Shown here in pieces: positions 7,996 to 25,006 of a stretch of 64,000 bases of DNA. How positions within the stretch are numbered: position 1 is the stretch's first letter; each line of letters starts with the position of its first letter. The notes beneath the pieces are model-generated. The model saw only the letters and a list, made by a program, of their open reading frames with translations. It did not search any database and was not told the origin of the DNA. The stretch is from Thiogranum sp. (GTDB lineage: Bacteria; Pseudomonadota; Gammaproteobacteria; DSM-19610): contig JASBSS010000022.1 in assembly GCA_030148805.1 (NCBI GenBank), positions 62,001 through 126,000 of the forward strand, written 5' to 3'. The position numbers and the translations under genes are program-made.

Positions 7996-8015
7996 TACTG
8001 TATGTAAATACAGTT
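7996..8015. promoter_or_regulatory. LexA operator (SOS box) of imuA-imuB-dnaE2
   Basis: CTGTATGTAAATACAG (7998-8013) is a full CTG-N10-CAG SOS box with an AT-rich core and TA/TT flanks, matching the gammaproteobacterial LexA consensus. It lies 20 bp upstream of the imuA ATG at 8033, placing it over the promoter or start of transcription. It predicts DNA-damage induction of the whole cassette. Confidence 0.93.
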
Positions 8016-8032
8016 ATTCGAACCGGACAGCC

Positions 8033-10076: not shown

Positions 10077-10093
10077 CTTCGGTCAGTGGCGCG

Positions 10094-13000
10094 ATGAGTG
10101 ATTCGGTTGATACGCAGACCACCGCGCCGGTTTATGCGGAATTGCACTGCCTTTCGAATTTCACTTTTCTGCGCGGTGCTTCGCATCCCCACGAGCTGGT
10201 CGCGCGGGCGCACGCGCTGGGCTATGCGGCGCTGGCGCTGACCGATGAATGTTCGCTCGCCGGCGTGGTGCGCGCGCACGAGGCGGCGCGCGATCTCGGT
10301 TTCAAGCTCATCGTCGGTGCCCAGTTCCAGCTGATGGAGGGCACGCGGCTTGTGCTCCTGGCGCCCGACCGTGAGGCTTATGGGGATCTGTGTGAGCTGA
10401 TCAGCGAGGGGCGACGGGGCGCGCCGAAAGGACAATACCGGCTGACGCGGGCGGCCGTGGGGCGGCGCGCGCGCACTTGCCTGGCCCTGTGGCTGCCGGG
10501 AGAGCCCTTTGCCGCCGAGGTGGCGCTGGAGGAGTTGGCGTGGCTGCGCGAGACCTTCGCCGGGCGCGCCTGGATCGCCGTGGAACTGTTGCGCGACGGT
10601 CACGACGAGGCGCGTCTGGCTGCGCTTGACGGCTTGTCGCAGCAGACCGGCTTGCCTTGTGTGGCCAGCGGCGATGTGCACATGCATGTGCGCGGCCGGC
10701 GGCCGCTGCAGGATGTGCTGAGCGCCATCCGGCGGCGCGAAACCCTCGCCCAGGCGATCCCCGCGCTGCATCCCAATGGCGAGCGTCATCTGCGCACGCC
10801 GGCGGCGTTGGCGCGCCTGTATCCCGAGCGATTGCTGGCGGAAACGCTAGGTATCGCCGAGCGCTGCCGGTTTTCCCTCGACGAGCTGCGCTACGAATAT
10901 CCGGACGAACTGGTGCCGGCGGGAGAGACCCCGGCGTCGCGGCTGGAGCAACTGACCCACGCAGGCTTGGCATGCCGTTGGCCTGACGGAACGCCGGCAA
11001 AAGTGCGCGCGCGCGTGGCCGACGAACTCAGGCTGATTCATGAATTGCGCTATGAAGCGTATTTTCTTACCGTGCACGACATTGTCGCTTTCGCCCGCGG
11101 CCGCGGCATTCTCTGTCAGGGGCGCGGTTCGGCGGCCAATTCGGCGGTCTGCTATGCCCTCGGCATCACCGAAGTCGACCCGGCGCGTATCGACACTCTG
11201 TTTGAGCGTTTCATTACCAGGGAGCGCAACGAACCGCCCGACATCGATGTCGACTTCGAGCACGAGCGGCGCGAGGAGGTCATCCAGTATCTGTATGGCA
11301 AATATGGGCGCGAGCGCGCGGCGTTGGCCGCCACGGTCATCACCTACCGCCCCAAGAGTGCGCTGCGCGATGTCGGCAAGGCGCTGGGGCTGGGGCTCGA
11401 TCAGATCGCCTTGCTCAGTTCCAACCTGGCGTGGTGGGATCGCGCCACCCTGGCGCCCGAGCGGCTGCGCGAGCTCGGCTTCGATCCCGCCAATCCCACG
11501 CTCCGGCGCCTGGTCAGACTGGTGACGCTGCTGCTGGGTTTCCCGCGGCATTTGTCGCAGCACGTGGGCGGGTTTGTGATCGCGCGTGGCAAGCTCTCAC
11601 GGCTGGTGCCGATTGAAAACGCCGGCATGGCCGAGCGCACCGTGATCCAGTGGGACAAGGACGATCTCGACGCCGTCGGTCTGCTCAAGGTCGACTGTCT
11701 GGCACTGGGCATGCTCAGTGCCATTCGTCGCAGTCTCGACCTGGTAAATCGGTTCCGCGGGACAAGCCTGTCGATGAGCGCTATTCCCGCCGAGGATGCC
11801 GCGGTCTACCGCATGATCTCCCGGGCCGACACGGTCGGGGTGTTCCAGATTGAATCCCGCGCCCAGATGGCGATGCTGCCACGGCTCAGGCCCGCGTGTT
11901 TCTACGACCTGGTGATCGAAGTGGCCATCGTGCGGCCGGGGCCTATCCAGGGCGACATGGTGCATCCTTATCTGCGCCGGCGTCAGGGGCTGGAGGCGGT
12001 GTCCTATCCTTCCGAGGCCGTGCGCGGCATCCTCGAACGTACGCTGGGAATACCGATCTTCCAGGAGCAGGTGATCAAAATCGCCATGGTGGCGGCCGGT
12101 TTCTCGGCCGGGGAAGCCGATCAACTGCGCCGCAGCATGGCGGCCTGGCGGCGCAGCGGCGCGCTCGAGCCATTCGAGCAGCGGTTGATCGAGGGCATGT
12201 CCCAGCGCGGTTACAGCGAGACTTTCGCGCGCCAGATCTATGCCCAGATCCAGGGTTTCGGCGAGTACGGTTTCCCGGAATCGCATGCGGCGAGCTTTGC
12301 GCTGCTGGTCTATGTTTCCGCCTGGCTCAAGTGCCACGAGCCGGCGGCGTTTCTCTGTGCGCTGCTCAATAGTCAGCCGATGGGTTTTTACGCCCCGGCG
12401 CAACTGGTGCAGGACGCGCGCCGGCATCGGGTCGACGTCCGCGCGGTGGATGTGGGTGCCAGCGATTGGGAGTCCACCCTGGAGCGGGGCAGGGACGGGT
12501 CGCCGGCGGTGCGTCTGGGCCTGCACCAGGTGCAGGGCCTGGGTCAGGCCGCCGCCGAGCGTCTCGTGCAGGCGCGTACTCAGCGGTCGTTTGCGGATGT
12601 GGCGGATCTCGCCCGGCGCGCCCGTTTGCAGCGCCAGGATCTTGAGGCGCTGGCCTCGGCCGGTGCGCTCCAGTCCTTGAGCGGTCATCGCCACCGGGCC
12701 CGGTGGGCGGTGGCCGGGATCGAGGCGCCCTTGCCCTTGCTGGAACGGGCGCGCCCGCGCGAGGCCTCGCCGCTGCTGCGCCGACCGAGCGAAGGCGAGG
12801 ACATCGTCGCCGACTATGCGAGCCTGGGATTGACGCTGGGCCGTCATCCGCTGGCGTTGCTACGCGCGCATCTGACGCGCCGACGCCGTTACCTGAACGC
12901 CGCGGCGGTGCGCGGGCTGGCCAGCGGCAGCGCGGTGCACACGGCGGGGCTGGTGGTCTCTCGCCAGCACCCGGGGTCGGCCTCGGGTGTGACTTTTGTG

Positions 13001-13210
13001 ACCATCGAGGATGAAAGCGGCCAGACCAATATCATCGTCTGGTCCAGATTGGGCGCTCGCCAACGGCGTGAATTATTGCACGCGCGTTTACTGGGGATCG
13101 CGGGCGAAGTACAGAACGAAGCCGGGGTCGTGCACGTGATAGCGCAATGTCTTTTCGACGAGAGTGAGTTGCTCGGCGGGTTGAAAGCCAGCTCCCGGGA
13201 TTTTCGCTGA
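10094..13210 (+). CDS. dnaE2: Error-prone DNA polymerase DnaE2 (ImuC)
   Basis: A 1038-residue C-family polymerase alpha subunit of the error-prone branch. In order: an N-terminal PHP domain (AELHCLSNFTFLRGASHP), the palm with the GRGSAANS loop, the catalytic PDIDVDF motif with D383, D385 and D387, fingers, helix-hairpin-helix, and a C-terminal OB fold (about residues 930-1010). It is shorter than replicative DnaE (about 1160), as usual for DnaE2. It performs damage-induced mutagenic synthesis with ImuA and ImuB. The ATG at 10094 starts after imuB; an in-frame ATG at 10052 would overlap imuB. Confidence 0.95.
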   Translation: MSDSVDTQTTAPVYAELHCLSNFTFLRGASHPHELVARAHALGYAALALTDECSLAGVVRAHEAARDLGFKLIVGAQFQLMEGTRLVLLAPDREAYGDLCELISEGRRGAPKGQYRLTRAAVGRRARTCLALWLPGEPFAAEVALEELAWLRETFAGRAWIAVELLRDGHDEARLAALDGLSQQTGLPCVASGDVHMHVRGRRPLQDVLSAIRRRETLAQAIPALHPNGERHLRTPAALARLYPERLLAETLGIAERCRFSLDELRYEYPDELVPAGETPASRLEQLTHAGLACRWPDGTPAKVRARVADELRLIHELRYEAYFLTVHDIVAFARGRGILCQGRGSAANSAVCYALGITEVDPARIDTLFERFITRERNEPPDIDVDFEHERREEVIQYLYGKYGRERAALAATVITYRPKSALRDVGKALGLGLDQIALLSSNLAWWDRATLAPERLRELGFDPANPTLRRLVRLVTLLLGFPRHLSQHVGGFVIARGKLSRLVPIENAGMAERTVIQWDKDDLDAVGLLKVDCLALGMLSAIRRSLDLVNRFRGTSLSMSAIPAEDAAVYRMISRADTVGVFQIESRAQMAMLPRLRPACFYDLVIEVAIVRPGPIQGDMVHPYLRRRQGLEAVSYPSEAVRGILERTLGIPIFQEQVIKIAMVAAGFSAGEADQLRRSMAAWRRSGALEPFEQRLIEGMSQRGYSETFARQIYAQIQGFGEYGFPESHAASFALLVYVSAWLKCHEPAAFLCALLNSQPMGFYAPAQLVQDARRHRVDVRAVDVGASDWESTLERGRDGSPAVRLGLHQVQGLGQAAAERLVQARTQRSFADVADLARRARLQRQDLEALASAGALQSLSGHRHRARWAVAGIEAPLPLLERARPREASPLLRRPSEGEDIVADYASLGLTLGRHPLALLRAHLTRRRRYLNAAAVRGLASGSAVHTAGLVVSRQHPGSASGVTFVTIEDESGQTNIIVWSRLGARQRRELLHARLLGIAGEVQNEAGVVHVIAQCLFDESELLGGLKASSRDFR

Positions 13211-13232
13211 GCCGCGTCTCAGCCGGGTAAAC

Positions 13233-13259
13233 AAAAAAGGGGCCAAAGGCCCCTTTTTT
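13233..13259. terminator. Bidirectional intrinsic terminator between dnaE2 and the outer-membrane protein gene
   Basis: A6 followed by GGGGCC-AAA-GGCCCC and T6. The A-run before and T-run after the stem make it functional on both strands. It sits between the convergent dnaE2 stop (13210) and the stop of the minus-strand gene at 13273. Confidence 0.93.
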
Positions 13260-13272
13260 AGTCGTCATCATC

Positions 13273-13785
13273 TCAGAAGTGGTAATTCACGCCGACGCTG
13301 ATGAAAGCCGCGTCCGATTCGATCTGTGAATATTCCGCTTCCACGTCCAGGTAGTCGTTGACGCGCACGCCACCGCCCAGACCCCAGGCGAGCCCGGAGT
13401 CGGATTCATCGGCCGAGACGCCACCGGCGCTCGCCGAGACGTCTTCGCGCAACACCCCGAGCTTGACCTTGCCGTACAGGGAATCGCCGAATTTCATCAC
13501 GCCATAGAGCGCCTGGGTGTCGATGTTCCAGTCGCCCTTGACACCGAAGGCCTGGAAGTCGCCATCTGCTACGCTGGTGGTCAGCTCGGCCTCGAGCGCC
13601 CAGCTCAAGCGGTCGTTGGCCGGGAGTTCGTAGCCGATGAGCACACCGGCGTTGAGCGCATCGTCGAAGGCGCTGTCGTCGACGCTGACCAGACCGGCTT
13701 TCGCGCCCAGGTAAAGACCTTCGGCGTGCGCGCCGCCGCCCAGCGCCAGCAGCAAGGGTGCCGCCAGGATGTTCTTGTTAAGCAT
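13273..13785 (-). CDS. Small outer-membrane beta-barrel protein
   Basis: A 170-residue protein with a Sec signal peptide (about residues 1-21, ending AHA before EGLYLG) and alternating hydrophobic residues with many G, Y, D and S, ending in ...VGVNYHF. A C-terminal Phe is the BAM recognition signature of outer-membrane barrels. Size suggests an eight-strand OmpX/OmpW/opacity-like barrel. Ligand and function are unknown. AAGGAAAC precedes the ATG. It is transcribed away from the histidine-kinase gene and shares the bidirectional terminator with dnaE2. Confidence 0.82.
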   Translation of the reverse strand: MLNKNILAAPLLLALGGGAHAEGLYLGAKAGLVSVDDSAFDDALNAGVLIGYELPANDRLSWALEAELTTSVADGDFQAFGVKGDWNIDTQALYGVMKFGDSLYGKVKLGVLREDVSASAGGVSADESDSGLAWGLGGGVRVNDYLDVEAEYSQIESDAAFISVGVNYHF

Positions 13786-13947
13786 TAGTGTTTCCTTCTA
13801 TGTAACGGTTGAGTGGCTAACAGTCATGTCGCAGTGGCATATCGACCTTTCCGGTTTGGCCTTTAGGTTGCGGAAACTGACAGTCCGCGTTTCGAATCGG
13901 GGTAGATGCAACCGCTTGCCAGCATCCGTCGACCCTAGGAGCGCGCC

Positions 13948-14020
13948 GGACTGACATGTCGGGGCGGAGTGCGTGGGACTTGACTTGTCGCGCTGGACGT
14001 GTGTGGGACTTGACATGCCG
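13948..14020. repeat. Three phased imperfect repeats, operator-like, upstream of the MEDS kinase
   Basis: Three copies of a GGAC(T)TGACATGTCG-like core lie at 13948-13961, 13976-13990 and 14006-14020. Each contains an 8-bp element, GACATGTC, GACTTGTC or GACATGCC, the first a perfect palindrome; the centres are 29 and 30 bp apart, close to three helical turns. They are in the 425-bp gap (13786-14210) between the outer-membrane protein and kinase genes. The sequence is open in the kinase frame, but the reading (repeated WDLTCR) looks non-coding. Nothing else was recognised in the gap. Confidence 0.55.
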
Positions 14021-14210
14021 GGAGTCGATCGCAAGGCCAATCGACGCTGGCATCGTGCGCCGGGGAAGTGTGTCTTACACGCTGAGGTTACCTAATCCGA
14101 TAATCCCCTATTTTTTTAGCATGAAAAGCTCGCTCTGGGATTCCGCTGAAAGGCAGATTTCTGCCCCGCGATACTGGAAGAGTCGCGTCATAGAAACTAG
14201 ACTACGGTCC

Positions 14211-17084
14211 ATGTCCACTGCCGCCACCATGATCCAGGAGCAAGTGCCCACCGGTCTGCCGGGCGTGGGTTCGGTGCCGTGGGGGACGCACATGTGTCAC
14301 TTCTATCGTTCCCCGCAGGAACTGTGCGAACCCCTGGTGGAGTTTTTCCGTGCCGGCCTGGACAACGGCGAATTGTGTCTTTGGGTCACCTCGGATCCCT
14401 TGCTTTCGAGCGAAGCCCGTGCCGCCCTCGCGCGGGTGGTGCCCAACCTCGACGATTATGAACGCAGTGGCCAGCTGTACATCGGCGATTTCCAGACTTG
14501 GTATGTCGATGCGGGGGAGTTCGACAGCGACAAGGTGGTGGAAAGCTGGTTGCAGCGGGAACAACGGGCGCTCGAAGCCGGCTTCAAGGGCGTGCGCCTC
14601 ACCGGCAACACCTCCTGGCTGGAACCGTCCAACTGGGACGAATTCACCGCCTACGAGGCCTGTGCGCACGCGGCGTTTCACCAGCGTCGCATCGTGGCGC
14701 TGTGCAGCTATCCGCTGGAGAGTTGCAATGCCGACGCGGTGCTCGAAGTGCAGCGCAATCACGAATTCTCCCTCATTTGCCAAGGCGGGGTGTGGGAGAC
14801 GGTGCGTAACGGCACCCAGCTCCTGGCGGCGATCGACAACCGTGGGCCGGCGCCACATACCGAACATTCGGTGCGTTTCTTCAGTCAGGACAATTACCCC
14901 GCTGAGGCCATCGCCGGATTCCTCTCCCAGGGCGCGTACGGCTGCGCGGCGGTCATCGCGCCAGCCCCTCATCTGAGCGCCCTGGGTGCTGCCCTGCGCC
15001 GACAGGGCGCGGATCCCTCGGGCGTTCTGATGTATGACACGGACAAGATCATGCGCGAGGTTGCCGGCCGGGACGGCCTGATCGCCGCCCTCAGCGAGAT
15101 GGTGGAGGAGGTCGTCCTGACGACGACGCGCGATTCGCGGAAAGCCTATATTTATGGCGAACTGGTGGACGTGCTCAGCCAGTCCGGCGACAAAGCCGCG
15201 GCGGTGGCGCTGGAGCAGGTCTGGAATGATCTGCTCCGCCAACACGATTTTGCGCTTTGGTGCGGTTACAGCCTGGAGCATTTCAATGCCGAGGATGCCC
15301 AGGCTTGCACCGCGGTGTGTGGCTGCCATGGCGATGTGCAGATCGACACCCCCGGCGAGCGCCAGCAATTGTTCGCGCGTGCACTGGTGGACGAGATTTC
15401 GCTGCGACGTCTGTATGAAAAGGAACGCTCGCGTCTGTTGCAGTTGGAGAGAAACACCAATCTGCGTCTTTCCCAGCTACAGGGGATCACCTCGGCATTG
15501 TCCGAAGCGGTGACCGCGCAGGATGTGGCCGAGGTCGTCTGCGCAGAGATCAGAACCCTCCTGGGGGCGGCCAGCGCCTTTCTTTCCGCGCCCGACGGGC
15601 AAGGGCGCCTGCGCTTATTGGCGCAGGTCGGCGTGCTGGATGAAGCCTGGGGCGATTGTCTGGCGTCGCCGACCGACCCGGGGGCGACGACCCGTATGGT
15701 GTTTCACTCCAGTCGACCTTTGTGGTTGTCCAGCGACGAGGAGATTTCCGCTCGGCTTCCGTGCTTGCGCGAAGGCGCCGGCGCCTTCGCCTGTCTGCCG
15801 CTCAGCCTGCACGGGCGCCGGCTTGGAATCGCCGGTTTTGCCTATCCCAGGGCGCAGCTTTTCGACAGTGCCCAGCGGGCCTTTCTGGAAGACACCTGCA
15901 AACAGGTGAGTCTGGCGTTGGAGCGTGCGCGATTGTATGACGAGGCCGAACGTCAACGGGCGCGGGCGGAAAGCGCCGGTCGCGCCAAGGACCAGTTCAT
16001 CGCCATGTTGGGCCACGAGCTGCGCAATCCCCTGGCGGCCATCCACACCGCCGCCGAGCTTCTGGGTCTGCCGCACCTGAGCCCGGAGATCGTCGCGCGG
16101 ACCCAGAAGATCCTCTCGCGCCAGGCGGGACACATGTCGAAGCTGATCGACGATCTGCTCGATGTGTCACGCATTGTTTGGGGCAAGATCAACCTCGACT
16201 TCAGCGAAGTGGATCTCACGGCACTGGTGTGCGAGGCGCTCGATGATCGGCGCGAACAGCTGGCGCAGCGCAAGCTCACGCTGAGCACCGATTTTGCCGC
16301 GCCGGCGTTGTGGGTGCGCGCCGACCGTGTCCGTTTGATGCAGGTGCTGGAAAACATCCTGGTCAACGCGGTCAAGTTCAGTCACGCCGGTGGCACCCTG
16401 CAGGTGTCGCTGGCCGCCGTGGGTGATGCCCAGGCCGTGCTGCGGGTAAAAGACAACGGCGCGGGTATTGATCCGGAGCTGTTGCCGCACATCTTCGAGC
16501 CTTTTCAACAAGGCGGTCAGGATCTGGCGCGCAGCTCCGGCGGCCTCGGGCTCGGGTTGACCTTGGTCAAGGGGCTGGTGGATATGCACCAGGGCGAGCT
16601 GAGCGTGACCAGCGACGGTTGCGGCAAGGGTTGCGAAGTGCAGGTGAGGTTGCCCTTGACCGGCGCGAGTCAGGCGGTGGCCCGTCTGCCCAATCCCGTC
16701 CCGGCAACGGTGCGCCAGGTGCTGATCGTGGAGGACAACCAGGATGCAGCAGAGTTGTTGAGCGAGTTGCTCCGCAGGGAAGGTCATGCGGTAGCGGTGG
16801 CCTACAGTGGCGAGCAGGCGCTGCAGGCCGCGCAGCGTGTTTCCCCGGATCTGGTGCTGTGTGATCTCGGGCTGCCGGGCGGCATGGATGGCTTCGAAAT
16901 CGCCGCGGCCATGCGCCGTCTCAACCCACCTTGCCGCGCCTACCTGGTGGCCCTCACCGGCTATGCCGCGCCGGAAGACGTTACCCGGGCATTGCAGGCA
17001 GGCTTCGATGAGCATGTCACCAAACCCGTCAGTCAGGGTGAGCTGAAGCGTCTTTTCGCCGCCATTCCAACGCCGAAAGCCTAG
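14211..17084 (+). CDS. Hybrid sensor histidine kinase with two MEDS domains and GAF
   Basis: A 957-residue soluble hybrid kinase. Two MEDS (DcmR-like sensory) domains occupy about residues 24-200 (starting WGTHMCHFY) and 219-395. A GAF domain follows at about 429-570, then HisKA with the phospho-acceptor H602 (GHELRNP), HATPase_c (about 705-830; DNGAGI and GGLGLGL) and a C-terminal receiver with acceptor D885 in VLCDLGLPGG. No transmembrane segment is seen, so the signal is intracellular. MEDS domains are tied to methanogens, methylotrophs and hydrocarbon-derivative sensing, but the ligand is unknown. Start choice is uncertain: 14211 is used; 14121 and 13956 are open upstream. No DNA-binding regulator is adjacent. 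Confidence 0.88.
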   Translation: MSTAATMIQEQVPTGLPGVGSVPWGTHMCHFYRSPQELCEPLVEFFRAGLDNGELCLWVTSDPLLSSEARAALARVVPNLDDYERSGQLYIGDFQTWYVDAGEFDSDKVVESWLQREQRALEAGFKGVRLTGNTSWLEPSNWDEFTAYEACAHAAFHQRRIVALCSYPLESCNADAVLEVQRNHEFSLICQGGVWETVRNGTQLLAAIDNRGPAPHTEHSVRFFSQDNYPAEAIAGFLSQGAYGCAAVIAPAPHLSALGAALRRQGADPSGVLMYDTDKIMREVAGRDGLIAALSEMVEEVVLTTTRDSRKAYIYGELVDVLSQSGDKAAAVALEQVWNDLLRQHDFALWCGYSLEHFNAEDAQACTAVCGCHGDVQIDTPGERQQLFARALVDEISLRRLYEKERSRLLQLERNTNLRLSQLQGITSALSEAVTAQDVAEVVCAEIRTLLGAASAFLSAPDGQGRLRLLAQVGVLDEAWGDCLASPTDPGATTRMVFHSSRPLWLSSDEEISARLPCLREGAGAFACLPLSLHGRRLGIAGFAYPRAQLFDSAQRAFLEDTCKQVSLALERARLYDEAERQRARAESAGRAKDQFIAMLGHELRNPLAAIHTAAELLGLPHLSPEIVARTQKILSRQAGHMSKLIDDLLDVSRIVWGKINLDFSEVDLTALVCEALDDRREQLAQRKLTLSTDFAAPALWVRADRVRLMQVLENILVNAVKFSHAGGTLQVSLAAVGDAQAVLRVKDNGAGIDPELLPHIFEPFQQGGQDLARSSGGLGLGLTLVKGLVDMHQGELSVTSDGCGKGCEVQVRLPLTGASQAVARLPNPVPATVRQVLIVEDNQDAAELLSELLRREGHAVAVAYSGEQALQAAQRVSPDLVLCDLGLPGGMDGFEIAAAMRRLNPPCRAYLVALTGYAAPEDVTRALQAGFDEHVTKPVSQGELKRLFAAIPTPKA

Positions 17085-17126
17085 GAAAGTCCAGCCGCGC
17101 AACAGCGTGGACTGTCGTTCATACGC

Positions 17127-17166
17127 TTGACATGTAAATGCGAATCATTATCATTAATGATAATGA
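17127..17166 (+). promoter_or_regulatory. Sigma-70 promoter overlapped by a Fur box
   Basis: TTGACA (17127-17132) and TATCAT (17149-17154) are 16 bp apart. A 22-bp perfect palindrome at 17145-17166 (TCATTATCATT and its complement) covers the -10 region and matches the Fur consensus made of GATAAT/ATTATC repeats. It lies 22 bp upstream of the DUF2325 start. This predicts iron repression of the DUF2325/peroxidase pair. Confidence 0.9.
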
Positions 17167-17187
17167 CACGTTTGGCTGGGTCTTGGT

Positions 17188-18420
17188 GTGTGCAGCAACA
17201 GCGAAAATAGCCCGCAAAGGCCGGTGGCGACGAAGCGCACCGGTCGCAGGAAAATCTGGGAACTGGACAGTGCCTTTCATTGCAGTCTCATCGGAACCTG
17301 TCTGTCGGTGGAGGAGCTGCGCTTGCTGTGCCGCAAGTTGCAGATCGTCAGCTCGGCGCCGCTGGGCGATTATGAACTACATCACTCCTTCGTCGCGGCG
17401 GTGGGCAAAAACTGTCACGCCGCCCGGCGGTTGAGCAAATTCCTGGATCGCAAGTATCGGCAGGAAATCCGCGCCTACAACGTCGCGCCCGAGGCGCAGC
17501 TGGAAGAGTGCTGGCGTGCCTCGGTCGCCGGGGGCAACCCGGCCGGCACTTATTGGGCGCTCGCCACCCACGCCCGGACACCGGCCGCACTGCTGGATCG
17601 GGCCTATGGCGAGATTCATATGCTGTCGCACCTGGCGGGCGCCGCGGCGCGGGTGGACAGGCGTGAAAGCCAACGCCTGCGCCGCAGCGCCGAGCTGTTC
17701 CGAAAGCAGCAGGCCGCGTTGCGTGCCAGAGCCAGATTGCGCGAGGCAGAACGGGAAGAACTGCTCGCGCAGACCCAACAGCGCCTGGTCCGGGCGCGGG
17801 AACAACTGCACCGCCAGGGCGAAAAGCAGCGCCGCCAGGCACCCGAGGCGACGCCCGTGGCGATGCGCTTGCGCCAGCAGGTGGAACACTACGCCGCCAA
17901 GCTGGCCGAGGCCCGCAAGCGGGCGGAAAGCGCCGCGGCCGAGGCGTTGCAATGGAAACAGATGGCGGTGAAACAGGGGGACCGTCTGTTGCGTATGGAG
18001 CGACGCCTGGTCGAGGCGCAAACCGAGCGTGATGCCCTCGAGCAGGCGCTGGAGACGCGCCTGGCCGGGGCAGCGATGACCTGCGAACTCGAGCGGGGCG
18101 AGAGCGGCAAGGTCAATTTGTGCGGACGCTGCATTTTGTACGTGGGCGGGAGAGACCGCCTGTGTGCCCGTTTCCGCCAACTGGTGGAGGGCAACAACGG
18201 TCGCTTCCTGCATCATGACGGCGGCTTGCACGAGGGGCGTCTGCGGCTGGGTTCGTTGTTGCCGCAGGCCGACGCGGTTCTCTGTCCCCTGGACTGCGTC
18301 AGCCACGATGCCAGTAAACGGATTCGGCAGTTCTGTAAACGCCACGGGAAAAAATTGGTATTACTGCCGAGGTGCAGCTTGGCCGCGTTTGCGCGTGGCC
18401 TGAGCGAGCTGACGGCCTGA
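17188..18420 (+). CDS. DUF2325 domain protein, Fur-controlled
   Basis: A 410-residue cytoplasmic protein. The N-terminal 150 residues are globular and helical (IWELDSAFHCSLIGTCLS), residues about 150-300 form a charged coiled coil rich in R, E, Q and A, and the C-terminal about 95 residues are the DUF2325 domain: ILYVGGRDRLCARFRQL, an HHDGG segment and VLCPLDCVSHDA. The DUF2325 fold resembles a Rossmann-like nucleotide or metal module; no activity is established to my knowledge. The GTG at 17188 gives the longest plausible product; no strong Shine-Dalgarno is seen, and a later GTG is possible. It is directly downstream of the Fur box and 36 bp before the di-haem peroxidase gene, so the two are probably co-transcribed. 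Confidence 0.8.
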   Translation: MCSNSENSPQRPVATKRTGRRKIWELDSAFHCSLIGTCLSVEELRLLCRKLQIVSSAPLGDYELHHSFVAAVGKNCHAARRLSKFLDRKYRQEIRAYNVAPEAQLEECWRASVAGGNPAGTYWALATHARTPAALLDRAYGEIHMLSHLAGAAARVDRRESQRLRRSAELFRKQQAALRARARLREAEREELLAQTQQRLVRAREQLHRQGEKQRRQAPEATPVAMRLRQQVEHYAAKLAEARKRAESAAAEALQWKQMAVKQGDRLLRMERRLVEAQTERDALEQALETRLAGAAMTCELERGESGKVNLCGRCILYVGGRDRLCARFRQLVEGNNGRFLHHDGGLHEGRLRLGSLLPQADAVLCPLDCVSHDASKRIRQFCKRHGKKLVLLPRCSLAAFARGLSELTA

Positions 18421-18456
18421 GCCTCACAATCTTTTACATTCCAAGAAGGTAGAATT

Positions 18457-20118
18457 ATGAATCCGGCATTTACTGGACGGGCAAGCATCGGCGTATTGTT
18501 GTTCATCGGGCATGCGGTCGCGGCGCTCGCAGCCGCCCCCATGGATCCGGCAGTCGTCGCCCTTGGTGAAAGACTGTTTCTGGAAACGCGTTTTGCCCAG
18601 TTCTATTTTTCCCACGGGCAGGGCGGTGATCCGCTGATGGAGACTACCGAGACGGTGACCGAACCGCTTCCCGGGCCTTTCAGCGGTCAGTCGATGAACT
18701 GTGCCGCCTGTCACCTGGTGGATCAGCAGTTAGACACCACGGGAGGCGGGATGCGGACCTATAACGATTTCGCCCGCCGCAGCCCGATACCGCTGCGCGA
18801 GGACGGAAAAACCAGGGCGGTGCGTAACAGCCCGCCGTTGGTAAACGCCTCTCTGTCCCGATCCACGGGTTTTTTGTTCCATTTTGACGGCGAGTTCGCC
18901 ACCTTGACGGATCTGGTCAAGGCGACCTATAGCGGACGCAACTATGGCTGGCTGCCCGGCGAGCGCGCGCAGGCGGTCAGCCATTTTGCCGCCGTCGTGC
19001 GCAACGACGACGGCAGTGGTGAACTGGCGCAGGAGTTCGGTGGCGCCTATCGTATCGTGCTTGCCGGGACCGATCCGTCGATTCCCGAAGAGTTGCGCCT
19101 GCCCGAGTCCTGGCGTCTGGATGTGGACAGCGCCAGTGACGAGGAGATTTTCGCGCACCTCGCAGGCTTGACGGCGGCTTATGTTGAGGATCTGGAATTT
19201 TCCCGTGATGAGAATGGGGCGTTCAACGGTTCCCCTTATGATCTGTTTCTGGCGAAAAACGGTTTGCCACGTCAACCCAGAAAAGGCGAGTCGGACGAGC
19301 GTTACAGTCGGCGTCTAATGAACCGTCTCGAGCAGCTGCGCCGGCCGCAGTTCGTGACCCCGCAGGAAGGCGGCTTCGCTTTTCATGATCAAACCTACGT
19401 ATTCGGGCCCCAAGAGTTGCAGGGCATGCGGATATTTTTTACCCGCGCCCAGCCGCGGGGCCGGCAATCCGCAGCGGTGGGCAATTGTGTCGCTTGCCAT
19501 GCCGCGCCGGCATTTACCGATTTCGCCTTACACAATACCGGTATCAGTCAGCTGGAATACGACAGTGTACACGGAGAGGGCGCCTTTGCTTCTCTCTATA
19601 TTCCTACCTTGCGTGAGCGCCGGCACGATCCCGACGCGTGGCTGCCGGCGACCGAGAATCACCCCAACGCGGCGGAGCCGTACCGGGCGATTCCCGCGCC
19701 CGATAACCCGCTTCTCGTCGATCTGGGCGCCTGGAATATTTTCGCCAACGCGGATTTTCCGCGCACCCAGGACACGCTGCGAAGGCAGCTTTGCCGCGAA
19801 CAGCTACAGGCGCGCAAACATCCCGGCGCCGTGCTGATCGGGCACTCCCACTGCGCACGCCCGGCGTTGTTGGAGCGAAGTATTGCCAGCTTCAAAACGC
19901 CGGGACTGCGCGACACCGGGCATTCGGCTCCCTATATGCATAACGGCGCGTTTGACACGCTGGAGGCTGCGACGGCGGTTTATCGCCGAGTGTCCGTCAT
20001 GGCGCGGAACGGTCTGTTGCGCAACCCGGCGCCTGCGCTGCTGGATATCCACCTTCAGGCAGAAGATGTGGAGCCGCTGGCGGCGTTTATTCGTTCGCTC
20101 AACGAGGATTACGAATAG
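18457..20118 (+). CDS. Di-haem cytochrome c peroxidase / MauG-family protein
   Basis: A 553-residue exported c-type cytochrome with signal peptide (about residues 1-26, cleaved after AALA). Two haem-binding CxxCH motifs are present: C82-A-A-C85-H86 and C344-V-A-C347-H348. The layout matches the bacterial cytochrome c peroxidase / MauG superfamily, but 553 residues is long compared with about 330-380 for CcpA and MauG. It should act in the periplasm, reducing peroxide or oxidising a protein or small substrate. AAGGTAG precedes the ATG. It follows the DUF2325 gene in a likely Fur-regulated operon and converges with a small minus-strand operon. Confidence 0.88.
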   Translation: MNPAFTGRASIGVLLFIGHAVAALAAAPMDPAVVALGERLFLETRFAQFYFSHGQGGDPLMETTETVTEPLPGPFSGQSMNCAACHLVDQQLDTTGGGMRTYNDFARRSPIPLREDGKTRAVRNSPPLVNASLSRSTGFLFHFDGEFATLTDLVKATYSGRNYGWLPGERAQAVSHFAAVVRNDDGSGELAQEFGGAYRIVLAGTDPSIPEELRLPESWRLDVDSASDEEIFAHLAGLTAAYVEDLEFSRDENGAFNGSPYDLFLAKNGLPRQPRKGESDERYSRRLMNRLEQLRRPQFVTPQEGGFAFHDQTYVFGPQELQGMRIFFTRAQPRGRQSAAVGNCVACHAAPAFTDFALHNTGISQLEYDSVHGEGAFASLYIPTLRERRHDPDAWLPATENHPNAAEPYRAIPAPDNPLLVDLGAWNIFANADFPRTQDTLRRQLCREQLQARKHPGAVLIGHSHCARPALLERSIASFKTPGLRDTGHSAPYMHNGAFDTLEAATAVYRRVSVMARNGLLRNPAPALLDIHLQAEDVEPLAAFIRSLNEDYE

Positions 20119-20154
20119 CCCTCGCGCCGCCAGCCGACGGCTCCCCGACCACCC

Positions 20155-20232
20155 TCAGTTGAACAGAAGGTAAATGATGACGAGTACGAACAGCGGGATG
20201 CCGAATAGCCATCCGATAAAATATTTGCCCAT
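20155..20232 (-). CDS. 25-residue single-pass membrane peptide
   Basis: A short open frame of 26 codons: starts MGKYFIGWLFGIP, then a run of V, L, I, F and Y, ending LLFN. The whole peptide is one hydrophobic helix with a lysine near its N terminus. It has a ribosome binding site (GAGG, 8 bp before ATG) and starts 26 bp after the AF1514-family stop, so it looks like the second gene of that operon. Composition and spacing support a genuine small membrane protein; function unknown. Confidence 0.65.
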   Translation of the reverse strand: MGKYFIGWLFGIPLFVLVIIYLLFN

Positions 20233-20258
20233 GTTATCAGCCTCAAAGGGAAGTTGTG

Positions 20259-20651
20259 TTAGCCACCGACACCGCCGCCGGCGAAATAGCCCAGCTTGCG
20301 TCGGTCTTCTTCGGTACAGGCATCACGCAGACATAGAATGCCGCTGTCACCGTCCTCGGCGAGCGTTTCGACATTGATGTCCGGCGAGGCGAATTCCTCG
20401 GACTCGGTGAAAATAAAGTGATATTTTCCGTCAACGTTCACTTGTAACAAGCCGTTGTTGTTTTCTCCGTAGTCGTGCCAGCGATCGTCACTGGCTCCCG
20501 GAATTTCCGGGCCGAACAAGCCCGTCTGATCGTCCTTCCAGGCGATAATCAATGGCTCCGAAAAATTTTCGCGCGCGCGGTCAGCCGCGGCGCGACGGGC
20601 ATTGAAAAAGTTGTCGGAAGTGGCTTCGAGCGAAAGATCGATATTTTTCAC
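20259..20651 (-). CDS. AF1514 family protein
   Basis: A 130-residue soluble protein. Its first 90 residues (NIDLSLEATSDNFFNARRAA; EPLIIAWKDDQTGLFGP; VNVDGKYHFIFTESEEF) resemble the AF1514/DUF5619 family: a beta strand, a helix, a W-containing strand and a final V-x-V-D-x-G-x-Y-x-F-I segment. The family has no known activity. The C-terminal 40 residues are an acidic, then glycine-rich tail with two cysteines (CLRDAC). The GTG at 20651 was chosen because AAGGAGAC lies 3-10 bp upstream; an ATG further out at 20726 lacks this. The 25-residue membrane peptide follows at 26 bp. Confidence 0.65.
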   Translation of the reverse strand: MKNIDLSLEATSDNFFNARRAAADRARENFSEPLIIAWKDDQTGLFGPEIPGASDDRWHDYGENNNGLLQVNVDGKYHFIFTESEEFASPDINVETLAEDGDSGILCLRDACTEEDRRKLGYFAGGGVGG

Positions 20652-21015
20652 GACTGTCTCCTTAAAGATCCGTGCCGATGGATAGCGGTGAGGGATAAGG
20701 CCCCCGATAAACTCCGATTCTCCCAACCAACCCGGGTCGGAATAGGGAAAAGTGTAGGTTTATGTGGGGAGAGAGTAGATAAGCCATTACCGACTATCGG
20801 GTAAGAGGAGTCCGACGGGTCAGGCAGGGGGCAGGCTATCGGGAGTGCCCCATGGCGTGCGGCGCTGCCAGAAGCTTGGGTTGCTCCCTCTCTACCCGGG
20901 TATTGCTATCGCCGTGCCTATCGCCGGCCGGTGCCGGCAGCGTGAAGCTTTACGTATCGTAGGCAACGGAACGTTGCCTGATGAATTGCAAATGGCTTTG
21001 CCAATACCGGAGCCG
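20652..21015. other. 364-bp gap without a recognisable gene
   Basis: It lies between the AF1514-family start and the LysR stop. It contains an 8-bp-stem hairpin, AGGCAACG-GAA-CGTTGCCT (20961-20979), without a T-run, which may mark the end of the LysR transcript. The open frame at 20845-21096 on the plus strand overlaps the LysR gene and has no coding character. Local base composition is slightly less GC-rich than the surroundings. Confidence 0.5.
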
Positions 21016-21948
21016 TCAAGGGGAGTGAACTTTTGGCACAGGGCGGTTCCAGAAGGGCGGCTCTCCTACGTATTCCACCAAGCGATCGATGAATAGTCGG
21101 GTCTTCTTCGGCAAATAACTTCGGCTTGGATACATGATGTAGATCGGCGAAAACGGAATCAACTGCAGGTCCGGCAATATGCGTACCAGCGTGCCTTGCC
21201 GCAGAGCATCGCGGCTGACGAAGGCCGCCAGGAGCGCGACGCCCAATCCGTCCTCGGCGGCCTTAAGCAGGGCATAACCGTCATTGACCTTAATCCGCGG
21301 ACTGACCGAAAACGTTTTAATAGTATCGCCAGCGCGGTAGTTCCAACTGTCGTTCACGCCGTATTCTCCCGAATAGACGACAAAACGATGATCGGCCAGG
21401 TCGGCGAGCTTCGTCGGCGCTCCGTGGCGTTCTAAATAGTCTGGGGAAGCCACCATCATAAACGGGTTATCGGCCAGTTTTCGCGCCACCAACGTAGAGT
21501 CATTCGGTTCGGTGACGCGAATGGCGACATCGTAGCGTTCGCCGACAAGGTCCACGTAACGGTCTTCCAGGCGCAGCTCGATATTCAGACGGGGATATTC
21601 GGCCGCCAGCGCTTCAATCACCGGTAGCACGTGCAGGCGGCCAAACTGCGTCGTGCTGGAGATGCGCAGTTCGCCCGCCACTTCCTGGCGTAGCGAGGCG
21701 ACCAGCGCATCCGTTTCCATGAGTTGTTCGCGTAACGAACAGGCATGTTGGTATATCGCCTCGCCGGCCTCCGTAAGACTCAGGCTGCGGGTAGTCCGAT
21801 TCAGCAGGCGTACGCCCAGCTGCTCTTCGAGTTTGGCCAGTTGCTTGCTGACATAAGACCGGTTGACCGCCCGGCGTTCAGCGGCTTTGCTGAAATTGCC
21901 GCTGTCGATGACGTCAGCGAATAAGATCAGACGACTGGCCGTGTCCAT
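21016..21948 (-). CDS. LysR-family transcriptional regulator
   Basis: A 310-residue LTTR with an N-terminal winged helix-turn-helix (residues about 4-62; NFSKAAERRAVNRSYVSKQL... LLNRTTRSLSLTEAGE) and a periplasmic-binding-like effector domain (about 90-295). It belongs to the AaeR/CrgA-like group by its RTTRSLSLTEAG signature. It is divergent from the ene-reductase gene at 22064, the classical LysR arrangement, so it probably controls that gene in response to an electrophile. The ATG at 21948 was chosen because GGAGACCCC precedes it; an in-frame start 42 bases upstream is less likely. Confidence 0.9.
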   Translation of the reverse strand: MDTASRLILFADVIDSGNFSKAAERRAVNRSYVSKQLAKLEEQLGVRLLNRTTRSLSLTEAGEAIYQHACSLREQLMETDALVASLRQEVAGELRISSTTQFGRLHVLPVIEALAAEYPRLNIELRLEDRYVDLVGERYDVAIRVTEPNDSTLVARKLADNPFMMVASPDYLERHGAPTKLADLADHRFVVYSGEYGVNDSWNYRAGDTIKTFSVSPRIKVNDGYALLKAAEDGLGVALLAAFVSRDALRQGTLVRILPDLQLIPFSPIYIMYPSRSYLPKKTRLFIDRLVEYVGEPPFWNRPVPKVHSP

Positions 21949-21962
21949 GGGGTCTCCATTGG

Positions 21963-21975
21963 TTCCATTCTGGAA
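21963..21975. promoter_or_regulatory. Candidate LysR operator in the divergent region
   Basis: TTCCA-TTC-TGGAA is a perfect interrupted palindrome 15 bp from the LysR start and about 90 bp from the ene-reductase start. The half-motif TTTGGAA recurs near 22000. LTTRs bind such T-N11-A type dyads; the assignment is inferred from position and symmetry only. Confidence 0.5.
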
Positions 21976-22063
21976 ACATATATACGACATTCTGGTGCTA
22001 TTTGGAAGGTTATGGGCGACTTAGAATGCTTCACCGAATTGTGACCTAACCAGGAGATGCGCC

Positions 22064-23170
22064 ATGTCTGGGATTACCACCTCGAGTGTCGAGCTGCTCA
22101 GCCCTTTCGCCTTGGGCGATTTGGAATTGCAAAACCGTTTGGTGATGGCGCCGTTGACGCGCAACCGGGCGGGTGACGGAAATGTCCCGACCGATCTGAA
22201 TGTCGAATATTATGGGCAACGCGCGAGCGCCGGGCTCATTATTACCGAGGCCGCGCAGATTTCGCCGCAAGGCGTCGGCTATCCCTCTACCCCGGGGATT
22301 CACACGTCCGCACAAGTCGCTGGTTGGCGCCGAGTAGTCGACGCTGTGCACGCCAGGAACGGACGCATTTTTCTGCAGCTCTGGCACGTCGGGCGTATTT
22401 CCCATCCTTCCCTGCAACCCGACAACGCGCAACCGGTGGCGCCTTCGGCGATCCGGCCAGCTGGCGAGGCCGTGACCTATGAGGGTATGAAAGCCTTCGA
22501 GACGCCGCGCGCGTTGCGGGCGGATGAGCTCCCGGGCATCGTTGCCGATTATGCTCGCGCGGCGCGTCATGCGCGCGACGCGGGCTTTGATGGGGTGGAG
22601 ATACACGCGGCGAACGGTTATCTGCTGGATGAGTTTTTGCGCGACGCCACCAACATCCGCGACGACGCTTATGGCGGCAGCGTGGAAAACCGCATGCGCT
22701 TATTGCAGGAAGTCGTCGAGGCGGTTACGCAGATCTGGCCTGCGCAGCGCGTCGGCGTGCGCTTATCCCCGGAAAACAGCTTTAACGATATTCGCGATTC
22801 CGATCCGCAGGCGACCTTCGGCGCCGTCGCTGACATGCTCAGCCGCTATCAGCTGGCCTACTTGCACGTGGTAGAGGGGGATATGATGAGCGGCGAACGC
22901 AAAGTGGACTATGGCGAGATCAAACGGCGTTTCGCGGGGATCTATATGGCTAATAACGGGTATACCAAAGCCCGTGCGGAACAGGCGTTGCACACGGGGA
23001 TGGCGGATCTGATCGCGATAGGGAAGTTGTTTATCGCAAATCCGGATCTGCCGCAGCGGTTTGCCGACAACGCCGAGCTCAACGAGCCAGACACAAGCAC
23101 CTTCTACGGTGGGGACGCGCGCGGGTATACGGACTACCCGGCCCTGACACAGAAAAGAAAGACCGCGTAA
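22064..23170 (+). CDS. nemA: Alkene reductase of the Old Yellow Enzyme family (NemA-like)
   Basis: A 368-residue FMN-dependent TIM-barrel oxidoreductase that reduces activated alkenes, N-ethylmaleimide and nitro compounds with NAD(P)H. Visible OYE features are the N-terminal LQNRLVMAPLTRNRA, the GLIITEA strand, QLWHVGR, the H-A-A-N substrate-binding pair in GVEIHAANGYLLDEFL and YGGSVENR. Length matches NemA (about 365). CAGGAGATGCGCC precedes the ATG. The divergent LysR gene likely regulates it. In this chemolithotroph a detoxification role is more likely than carbon metabolism. Confidence 0.93.
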   Translation: MSGITTSSVELLSPFALGDLELQNRLVMAPLTRNRAGDGNVPTDLNVEYYGQRASAGLIITEAAQISPQGVGYPSTPGIHTSAQVAGWRRVVDAVHARNGRIFLQLWHVGRISHPSLQPDNAQPVAPSAIRPAGEAVTYEGMKAFETPRALRADELPGIVADYARAARHARDAGFDGVEIHAANGYLLDEFLRDATNIRDDAYGGSVENRMRLLQEVVEAVTQIWPAQRVGVRLSPENSFNDIRDSDPQATFGAVADMLSRYQLAYLHVVEGDMMSGERKVDYGEIKRRFAGIYMANNGYTKARAEQALHTGMADLIAIGKLFIANPDLPQRFADNAELNEPDTSTFYGGDARGYTDYPALTQKRKTA

Positions 23171-23331
23171 ACAGGTATGACGGAGGCCTCTCGGCGGGCG
23201 ACCGAGCATCCACCTGTCGAGGGGCCTAAGGACACCGCCGTTGACAGGGTGTCATCGCCGAGCGCGTACGGGGGCGACGCTGATGGCGCGTAGAGTCCCG
23301 CGGCCACGAGGGCCTGGGCTCGTTCGGGCGG

Positions 23332-24081
23332 CTATTGAGAAAAAACTTTTTTAAGTAAGTCGGTCGTCCGTGCCACCGGATCCTCACGGATACGTTTTTC
23401 TTCCGCGGCCAGCTTGAGAAACAAACCATCCAGTGTTTTGCCGGCGATGTATCGATCCAGATCGAGGTTTTCCGGGGTTCCGGTAAATGGCGCGAGCATG
23501 CTGAGTTTGGCCGTCATCTGCTTATAAGAGGCTGTCACGCCAGCCTCGGCGGTGGTGTCTTTGACAATAGGTAAAATCGCGTCGGTCAATTGACCAGCAT
23601 TTTTGTTGCGAAAATACTGTGTCGCGGCATCATCCGGACCGTTGAGGATACCGCGCGCGTCTTCCAGAGACATGGACTGGATACTGTCTTTGATGATGCT
23701 CACGGTAGCCGGTACCGCCTGTTCGGCGGCGTGGTTCATGGCGGCGACAAAGTCGTCAGCCAGTTTCTGCTGGCCGATCAGTCGCAAGCCGTCGCCGACC
23801 TTCTCCAGCGACCCCGGCATGGTGATTTTTACCGCCGGGTCGTTCAAGAAGCCGCCACTACGTCCTAACAGCTCGGTCGCCCGTTCCGTGCCAACGCTCA
23901 AAGCCTGTCGCAATCCGGCGACAACTTCACTGGAGGTCAGGGTTTGGGGGGTGCCCGCGGACGTGGCTTGCGGCAGGTTTTTCTCGATTTTCTTATACCA
24001 ATCGGCCCAGTCCGCCTGGAGCGCCGGACTTATCAGGAGGCTGATTCCCAGTGCGAGGACGGTTGCCGTTGCTGCCTGCAT
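23332..24081 (-). CDS. DUF4197 domain protein, exported
   Basis: A 249-residue protein with a signal peptide (about 1-23, ending ALQA before DWADW) and then a helical domain matching DUF4197: SEVVAGLRQALSVGTERATELLG, FLNDPAVKITMPG, KNAGQLTDAILPIVKDTT and a final DGLFLKLAAEEKRIR. Function of the family is unknown; members are predicted periplasmic. The ATG at 24081 opens on the signal peptide and is preceded by GGAGTCCG; upstream in-frame codons would add a non-signal extension. It is convergent with nemA. Confidence 0.88.
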   Translation of the reverse strand: MQAATATVLALGISLLISPALQADWADWYKKIEKNLPQATSAGTPQTLTSSEVVAGLRQALSVGTERATELLGRSGGFLNDPAVKITMPGSLEKVGDGLRLIGQQKLADDFVAAMNHAAEQAVPATVSIIKDSIQSMSLEDARGILNGPDDAATQYFRNKNAGQLTDAILPIVKDTTAEAGVTASYKQMTAKLSMLAPFTGTPENLDLDRYIAGKTLDGLFLKLAAEEKRIREDPVARTTDLLKKVFSQ

Positions 24082-24361
24082 GCGGACTCCTTTGCGGGCG
24101 CCGAATAGCCTTGGTTCGGCTTCCAGCGCCTTCCTTGGGTGTGAACTCTCAATCTCCTCGGGCAATGTATCAGATCCGCACTGATAAGGGTAATCACGCC
24201 CGCCACGGCGGCGAATTTCCATAAATCCACGCCAGCGGTATGGCTACGGCCCGGCGGATGCTACACTGAGCCCGGCCAAGGCGCCCGCCTTTGCCGGACT
24301 GGGAGCAATTTCAAGCAAAAAGTGAAAATACAGGTGTTCGCGCCTGGAAGGAGATATCACA

Positions 24362-25006
24362 ATGACGGATAAAAAAGTGGCGCTGATGGTAGCGGCTTCG
24401 CTGACGGGTGTACTGATGCAGCAAAGCGTGTCGGCACACGGTGTTGGCAAGGGAAACGATGGCTTTGTGGTGGATTCGAGTGGTCATCTGGTTTCCGACG
24501 GCGCGGGTGATTGCCTGAGAACCCGTGAGTGGAGCAAAGATCTGGACCTGGTCGATTGCGGCGCCGAGCCCAAGAAGACGGCGGTGGTCGCGCCCGAGCC
24601 GGCCCCGACGACGCAGCCGGCGCCGATGCCCGAGCCGGTGGCGGTGTCTGAATCGGTGGCGCTTTCGGCCGGCGCGCTTTTCGACGTGAACAGCGACCAG
24701 TTGAAAGACGCCGGCAAGCAGGAGCTGTCGGCGCTGGCGACCCATATCAAGGCGCTGCAGGAGATTCAAAGCATCAAGATCATCGGCCACACCGACAGCA
24801 CCGGCGCGGCCTCCTACAATCAGGTGTTGTCACAGCGCCGGGCCAACGCGGTGAAGAACTATCTGCTGGATCAGGGTATTTCTCCCACCGTGATGTCGAC
24901 CCTGGGCATGGGGGAAGAGCGGCCGGTTGCCAGCAACGCCACCCGCGAAGGTCGCGCCCAGAACCGTCGGGTCGAAATCAAGATAGAAGGTTCGCGCAAG
25001 CGCTAA
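24362..25006 (+). CDS. OmpA-family outer-membrane protein
   Basis: A 214-residue protein: signal peptide (about 1-25, cleaved after VSA), a short region with two cysteines (CLRTREWSKDLDLVDC), a proline-alanine-rich linker (about 75-100) and a C-terminal OmpA peptidoglycan-binding domain (about 105-210; LFDVNSDQLK, IIGHTDSTG, SQRRANAVKNYL, NRRVEIKI). It tethers the outer membrane to the cell wall. No full beta-barrel is present. The CLRTxEW/VxC motif is common in small OmpA-like proteins of proteobacteria. GAAGGAGATATCAC precedes the ATG. Confidence 0.92.
   Translation: MTDKKVALMVAASLTGVLMQQSVSAHGVGKGNDGFVVDSSGHLVSDGAGDCLRTREWSKDLDLVDCGAEPKKTAVVAPEPAPTTQPAPMPEPVAVSESVALSAGALFDVNSDQLKDAGKQELSALATHIKALQEIQSIKIIGHTDSTGAASYNQVLSQRRANAVKNYLLDQGISPTVMSTLGMGEERPVASNATREGRAQNRRVEIKIEGSRKR

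Follow-up and report, generated by a model that had tools for sequence, protein, structure and literature searches.

The window analysed here, a 64,000-nucleotide stretch of a Thiogranum sp. genome (G000; G labels denote genomes and L labels loci), carries a two-gene operon in which the gene for a DUF2325 protein is followed by the gene for a long exported di-haem peroxidase-like protein. A perfect Fur-type palindrome lies over the -10 element of its promoter, and on sequence evidence the operon is very likely under the control of Fur. We read it as a Fur-repressed iron-starvation operon whose two proteins both serve the acquisition of iron or haem, a reading to which we give an even chance. 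The two-gene unit probably forms a little-known part of the response of some bacteria to iron shortage.

In the mechanism that we propose, Fur charged with Fe2+ would occupy the palindrome while iron is present and keep the promoter shut; under iron shortage, or once Fur has been inactivated, this one promoter would make both proteins. The DUF2325 protein would stay in the cytoplasm and most likely handle imported iron or haem, as a member of a family that appears to work with haem/iron uptake and iron storage. The peroxidase, an exported oxidoreductase of the cytochrome c peroxidase (CCP)/MauG superfamily with two c-type haems, would most likely carry out a periplasmic redox step of iron/haem acquisition, as a redox partner comparable to DHOR or EfeB in imelysin systems. 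Whether the pair takes part in acquisition at all is, in our estimate, evenly balanced.

A Fur box overlaps the promoter of the operon

Between positions 16900 and 20400 there is a single promoter-like match, TTGACA and TATCAT separated by a 16-nt spacer, which scores 11/12 where shuffled sequence averages 1.0 match; its position is conserved in relatives. The palindrome TCATTATCATTAATGATAATGA covers its -10 element, as the initial annotation of this DNA had claimed, is not extendable and ends 21 bp 5' of the DUF2325 start codon. Its 20-bp core, allowing up to 3 mismatches, matches once in the 64-kb window against 0 expected (100 shuffles), and another phase of the consensus, ATAATGATAATCATTATCATT, has no match in the window at 3 mismatches. 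Scoring with the classical 19-bp Fur consensus was applied to the 300 nt upstream plus 60 nt of the gene and compared with windows from the same locus. The best match, 15/19 at 17134, was unequalled by up to 400 random windows of the same size nearby. The window operon has what we take as the mark of a Fur regulon member, a predicted Fur box overlapping the promoter.

A second perfect 22-bp palindrome, GC-rich and probably due to chance, lies at 15769-15790 inside a histidine-kinase gene. Because of this second palindrome the length of the first is not special in itself; its Fur-type sequence is.

Fur boxes precede relatives of both genes

Of the 22 regions scored upstream of DUF2325-family genes, 14 have a Fur box at p<0.05 relative to same-locus windows, where about one would be expected by chance. 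Two of these loci, L088 and L089, have no Pfam DUF2325 match, and with both left out the count is 13/20; the box of the L089 gene lies 35 nt 5' of its start. The test covered neither L075 (gene at a contig end), L087 (split match) and G224 (weak match) nor the decayed locus of G126. When eight upstream regions from five families, chosen for a close box and including the decayed G126 row, were aligned, 17 of the 18 invariant columns fell inside TTGACA plus the Fur box. The same combination precedes DUF2325 genes in four gammaproteobacterial families besides that of the window. These results back the Fur control proposed in the initial annotation.

The two peroxidase genes that directly follow DUF2325 have no box of their own. 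The stand-alone peroxidases have one in four of six cases (L060, L061, L063 and L064, with none in L062 and L065), or in 4/7 when L108, which has none, is counted. It is less the pair than the predicted Fur control of each gene that is conserved.

DUF2325-family genes keep company with iron and haem genes

To survey the neighbourhoods of relatives, we compared the 7 kb on each side of the gene at 22 DUF2325-family loci with 20 control stretches taken from five genomes. Stretch lengths varied, giving 288 kb of target and 306 kb of control sequence; L068, L087, G126 and G224 were left out and L075 was included. TonB receptor genes occurred at 10 loci, PA4570-like genes at eight, bacterioferritin (Bfr) at six, HmuY at four, DHOR and imelysin at three each, and ferritin-like genes and the long peroxidase at two each. 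At least one marker was present at 18 of 22 loci (16 of 22 excluding the long peroxidase) and in 1 of 20 controls, that one a weak TonB match, a contrast which is large but inflated, because marker families and representatives were picked from the target loci.

Several loci bring these genes close together. L089 leads straight from its DUF2325-family member into imelysin and DHOR genes, and in L077 and L082 a DHOR gene lies less than 6 kb from the DUF2325 gene. The receptor of L071 finds its best match in a haem-receptor family, below the cut-off (295 vs 317 bits). DUF2325, PA4570-like and ferritin-like genes stand in this order on one strand in G212 (L073, 25-2039), and DUF2325, ferritin-like and imelysin genes share a strand in G240 (L086, 208-3219). 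A decayed locus from another family (G126; L066, 100-1440) retains a Fur-type promoter, the last 33 DUF2325 codons with stops, a PA4570-like gene and a ferritin-like gene (47% and 68% identical to those of L071 and L073, respectively) and peroxidase fragments; the first three genes stand in the order seen in G212. From the gene orders of G126, L073 and L086 it follows that DUF2325, PA4570-like, ferritin-like and peroxidase genes come together in more than one family.

This company fits the iron-scarcity setting that the initial annotation suggested. Its remark that the operon does not look like a known Fur regulon member fares worse: relatives lie near TonB receptors, HmuY, bacterioferritin or ferritin, and imelysin/DHOR genes, and a small Campylobacter jejuni DUF2325 gene, cj1384c, is reported to be a Fur target (PMC4491227).

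Beside these results we note that another contig, L067, opens with a 97% match to the first 392 bases of L066. In L077 (11383-14064) and L082 (8416-11226), genes for a CbiX-like chelatase and FMN_bind/NapH-like proteins lie near DUF2325 and TonB/HmuY, possibly as a haem-processing cluster.

The pair is rare, and several observations count against the proposed reading

DUF2325-protein matches were found in 24 of the 369 genomes of the class. Those in G126 are fragments, that in G224 is weak, G323 has the C-terminal domain only, G190 and G295 match chiefly in the N-terminal part, G061 is split, and the rest are long. A full-length long peroxidase is encoded in 7/369 genomes (G000, G132, G138, G180, G184, G326 and G341), with fragments in G126. 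Only G000 and G184 among these seven also have DUF2325. Among the 17 genomes of the genus, three carry DUF2325 and two the peroxidase. The intact genes are adjacent in the window and in one further Thiogranum sp. locus (L059 = G371), and in G184 they are unlinked: they lie on different contigs, in either case with over 10 kb to the nearest contig end, and both have a Fur box. In a sample of the phylum, the long peroxidase was found in one of 398 genomes, the window's own. Sampling of individual orders gave 1/4 for that of G184, 2/4 for that of G132, 2/4 for that of G326 (one new, G767) and 1/9 for that of G138. Plasmids yielded no long peroxidase at E 1e-20 and DUF2325 in 34 records.

The expectation that the pair would be conserved in relatives is thus borne out in part: it is adjacent in G371 and decayed but linked in G126, yet it is sparse in the genus and unlinked in G184.

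A number of these observations weigh against our reading. Twenty-two of the 24 DUF2325-family genomes lack a full-length long peroxidase and five of the seven peroxidase carriers lack DUF2325; since most carriers of either gene are without its partner, neither needs the other. Eight of the 22 upstream regions have no significant box (L074, L076, L078, L079, L083, L084, L086 and L088); in L076 and L078 a better one lies 5' of the preceding small gene. No marker gene lies near L058, L080, L081 or L088, and in L058 DUF2325 stands alone. Of the 34 plasmid records we inspected seven contexts, four annotated (alphaproteobacterial) and three unannotated; on the four annotated plasmids the direct neighbours of DUF2325 were MsrB/DipZ, XdhC, chemotaxis and GntR genes, with no iron genes. 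A scan of the Thiogranum genome for the Fur 19-mer with 3 mismatches gave no match, with a pattern too strict for the window site itself, which has 4 mismatches. A two-haem enzyme is, moreover, costly to make under iron starvation.

Iron-type genes do occur about 3-7 kb off DUF2325 on two of the four annotated plasmids, an iron ABC transporter (L094) and ExbB/ExbD/TonB (L096); none is adjacent, and L095 and L099 have none. The DUF2325 genes of L094, L095 and L099 lie by MsrB/DipZ, by XdhC/molybdoenzyme genes, or near ModA/aldehyde dehydrogenase genes, another setting of the family.

An alternative is that these are two separate Fur-regulon genes which share a promoter through a chance gene order in one lineage and have no joint function. 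L058 (= G381) fits this: its DUF2325 protein is 69% identical, its gene has a Fur box, and the order of kinase, DUF2325, DUF5619, LysR and FMN (flavin mononucleotide) oxidoreductase genes is that of the window, but no long peroxidase is found at the locus or genome-wide at E 1e-8. The four stand-alone peroxidases with their own box point the same way. Against a chance pairing stand the second, decayed linkage in another family (G126) and the three loci in which DUF2325-family genes lie near another di-haem family, DHOR, and we consider it improbable.

The DUF2325 protein has a conserved Cys/His-containing N-terminal part

The features of the operon are listed in Table 1. The gene order given in the initial annotation, DUF2325 and then a 553-residue exported di-haem protein, agrees with the coordinates, the Pfam assignment and the CxxCH motifs at residues 82 and 344.

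Table 1. Features of the DUF2325-peroxidase operon (positions in the window).
Feature	Position	Strand	Basis
-35 element TTGACA	17127..17132	+	Only promoter-like match in region; invariant across 8 aligned upstream regions
Extended Fur box: 15/19 match to the 19-mer at 17134, with the palindromic extension	17134..17166	.	Predicted, consensus scoring
Perfect palindrome, 22 bp, TCATTATCATTAATGATAATGA	17145..17166	.	Covers -10; not extendable
-10 element TATCAT, within Fur palindrome	17149..17154	+	Promoter scan
DUF2325 protein gene, 410 aa, GTG start	17188..18420	+	PF10087 match; relatives' starts
Conserved helical N-terminal part, about residues 20-150	17245..17637	+	Alignment and AlphaFold helices; limits approximate
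Coiled coil (predicted) formed by two long helices, residues 133-215 and 224-297	17584..18078	+	AlphaFold, moderate confidence
DUF2325 domain, residues 315-407, Rossmann-like model	18130..18408	+	Pfam, AlphaFold, alignment
Shine-Dalgarno-like AAGAAGG	18443..18449	+	7 nt 5' of peroxidase ATG, read in sequence
Long exported di-haem peroxidase-like protein gene, 553 aa	18457..20118	+	Profile searches, haem motifs
Probable Sec signal peptide, about residues 1-26	18457..18534	+	Hydropathy (hydrophobic N-terminus); cleavage site by eye
First haem motif CAACH, residues 82-86	18700..18714	+	CxxCH
Second haem motif CVACH, residues 344-348	19486..19500	+	CxxCH

The protein scores 78.4 bits against Pfam PF10087 (cut-off 33.6), which places it in the DUF2325 family; its genome, which is 96% complete, gave no other PF10087 match. 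The GTG start fits the 'MC' start of several relatives. Besides the C-terminal domain, Pfam returned a weak coiled-coil match, and NCBIfam searches with 20 DUF2325 proteins gave mainly coiled-coil and other unspecific matches. In the alignment of relatives, C32, C38, H65, W109, W123, H144 and H148 of the N-terminal part are kept in 20/20 rows, as are H343, H373 and C383 of the DUF2325 domain, where C366 and C370 are kept in 19/20.

The AlphaFold model (predicted local distance difference test (pLDDT) score 68, predicted template modelling score 0.36) has a helical N-terminal part, two long helices and a Rossmann-like end. Foldseek found no match to it at E<=0.001. VIA-align gave as its best match a BaeR structure (Z 10.6, root-mean-square deviation 2.4, 93 aligned); its list covers residues 311-410 and is unspecific, the folds being common Rossmann-like or receiver-like ones. 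Neither this protein nor the long peroxidase matched PHROGs at E 0.001.

We infer from the conserved residues that the Cys/His set of the N-terminal part may bind metal or haem. A bolder proposal, which we think doubtful, is that the long DUF2325 proteins form a new cytoplasmic iron/haem-handling system. In it C32, C38, H65, H144 and H148 of a hitherto undescribed N-terminal part would bind haem or iron, small PA4570-like Cys proteins and ferritin or bacterioferritin would help to move iron out of imported haem or stores, and extracytoplasmic di-haem enzymes, of the long family or DHOR, would perform the matching periplasmic redox step.

The long peroxidase forms a distinct branch of the di-haem superfamily

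The gap between the two genes is 36 bp, and we predict that they are co-transcribed. No terminator-like match occurs on the + strand of 16900-20400, either between the genes or behind them, so that up to 20400 the 3' end of the transcription unit is unmarked. The earlier label 'di-haem peroxidase' holds at the superfamily level: the protein has the CCP_MauG hallmarks, two CxxCH motifs and a C-terminal TPxLR...APYxHxG, while its score for Pfam CCP_MauG (PF03150) falls just under the cut-off (24.4 vs 25.6 bits). The eight long members have their CxxCH motifs about 245-267 residues apart and share a non-haem cysteine pair, C446/C466. Aligned with 12 of 27 CCP/MauG-type proteins from other genomes and from the Thiogranum genome, they prove to carry insertions ahead of the first haem motif and to either side of the second. 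A tryptophan in the WDG segment between the haems is a feature of classical cytochrome c peroxidase. At this position all eight long members have F, H or V, within an H-F/H/V-DG segment; the tryptophan is not universal among the relatives either, the comparison rows having W (WDG) in 7/12 and H (HDG) in 5/12. The long members have TGRNxGW....E where most comparison rows have EMN, EMA or EMG. An AlphaFold model of the peroxidase made with two sequences was unusable (mean pLDDT 34).

Assignment to a named subfamily was rejected in each case tried. Scores were far below the cut-offs for MbnH (TIGR04039; 37.2 vs 362.85 bits) and MauG (TIGR03791; 31.1 vs 443.85 bits), and for DHOR (PF06537) there was no Pfam match at E 0.1 and a BLASTP comparison with one DHOR gave E 0.15. 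By its sequence the long peroxidase is best classed as a distinct branch of the superfamily, separate from MauG, MbnH and DHOR.

This bears on the alternative that the enzyme, like MauG or MbnH, oxidises residues of a partner protein and thereby creates a metal-binding site. MbnH modifies MbnP in this way under copper limitation. Profile searches against solved structures ranked the 'Di-heme enzyme' 6e1c first (9e-10), which we take to be MbnH-type, followed by 6nx0, presumably BthA, and MauG; the best NCBIfam match was TIGR04039, the MbnH family. These structure matches extend over some 40-75 C-terminal residues only, the best stretch being about 75, and the TIGR04039 score is a small part of its cut-off. 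The window enzyme shares with MauG, MbnH and BthA the superfamily, the two CxxCH motifs and the TPxLR...APYxHxG motif, and differs in its several insertions, other near-haem residues and low subfamily scores. Any two of the six stand-alone neighbourhoods L060-L065 have no gene cluster in common other than the peroxidase. Residue modification of this kind is therefore a poor prospect. In one of these neighbourhoods, L065, a TonB receptor gene lies about 4 kb from the peroxidase.

The Thiogranum genome holds further di-haem genes: L111 (C36) has two neighbouring MauG-like ones, of which one has an N-terminal part resembling SCO on visual inspection, and the CCP-like protein encoded in L110 (C38) has a third CxxCH close to the C-terminus.

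Comparison with known systems

One of the closest parallels to the operon is cj1384c of C. jejuni, a small DUF2325 gene with a Fur repression motif that is up in a fur mutant (PMC4491227). It lies by katA, was induced more strongly by violet-blue light than any other gene, and is under the control of PerR and RacRS (PMC9426514). The cj1383c-cj1384c/katA region resembles the window in having a Fur-repressed, strongly iron-responsive DUF2325 gene beside a peroxide-acting haem enzyme (PMC4491227, PMC3815106, PMC9426514). It differs in that the cj1384c protein, at 104 aa, is too short for the N-terminal part and coiled coil, the partner is a catalase, and PerR acts as well.

The Campylobacter genes also speak for another explanation, that the operon is a peroxide defence wired to Fur. 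Hydrogen peroxide or loss of Fe2+ would inactivate Fur, the periplasmic enzyme would reduce H2O2 and the cysteine-bearing DUF2325 protein would guard the cytoplasm. The place of cj1384c by katA, its induction by light and its regulation by PerR (PMC9426514) as well as Fur (PMC4491227) support this explanation. The superfamily of the peroxidase, which includes the bacterial cytochrome c peroxidases, and a Rhizobium plasmid on which DUF2325 precedes msrB and dipZ agree with it. The gammaproteobacterial sites, however, are Fur-type, the neighbouring genes recorded serve uptake and storage (the survey did not look for catalase), and the near-haem residues are unlike those of ordinary CCPs, with no WDG tryptophan and no plain EMN/EMG segment. 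We regard peroxide defence as unlikely, though a serious contender. An acquisition role seems to us about twice as probable because haem and iron genes accompany DUF2325, several lineages have a Fur box at the peroxidase gene itself, and a second di-haem family is found close to DUF2325-family genes.

Iron-linked systems offer partial analogies to the acquisition role. Clusters of imelysin (M75), DHOR (PF06537) and DUF1513 genes also place a di-haem oxidoreductase among iron-linked genes, near DUF2325-family genes in L077, L082 and L089; the window enzyme is not a DHOR, and no imelysin gene is among the ten window neighbours scanned. The iron-regulated import system EfeUOB/FepABC includes an extracytoplasmic haem peroxidase (PMC9174327, PMC3577903). 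Unlike the window enzyme EfeB is a DyP-type peroxidase, and none of the ten neighbours is an EfeU, EfeO-like or M75 gene.

PA4570 of Pseudomonas aeruginosa has a canonical Fur site and is induced by iron starvation (PMC13277308). Eight of the 22 DUF2325-family loci have a PA4570-like gene nearby, and the G126 locus holds one too. None is beside the window pair, and two of the relatives score 21.7 and 30.3 bits against an NCBIfam cut-off of 100, a third having no match. To our knowledge the role of PA4570 is not settled. In anammox bacteria DUF2325 has been named as possible encapsulin cargo (PMC6934571). A limited literature search, by titles and openings, found nothing on a Fur-controlled gammaproteobacterial DUF2325 gene or on the long peroxidase.

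Two further candidates were set aside. The idea that SO1188-SO1190 of Shewanella is a DUF2325 operon was not borne out, SO1188 being listed as an inner-membrane protein and SO1190 as a component of a Co2+ transporter (PMC2667191). A methanotroph Fur box with di-haem peroxidases belongs to work on a copper-responding multihaem operon (PMC4831470).

These comparisons give a domain of unknown function a testable place in the iron-starvation response of several gammaproteobacterial families and tie it to PA4570, and they describe a rare subfamily of long di-haem enzymes, with Fur boxes in several lineages. If the acquisition role is true, it would open a way to study what iron-starved cells do with haem iron once it has been taken up.

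Neighbouring genes in the window

Among the ten window neighbours scanned (8003-25003) there is no haem- or siderophore-uptake gene, just as the initial annotation had observed. Downstream of the operon lies a convergent DUF5619 gene. Upstream is the gene for a MEDS-domain hybrid histidine kinase (13956-17084), which has two MEDS (DcmR-type) stretches with GAF and receiver domains and ends about 100 bp before the operon. Farther upstream, at 8003-13210, SulA-like, ImuB-like (IMS) and DNA polymerase III alpha-like genes stand in a row, likely an SOS mutagenesis operon, presumably of the imuA-imuB-dnaE2 type.

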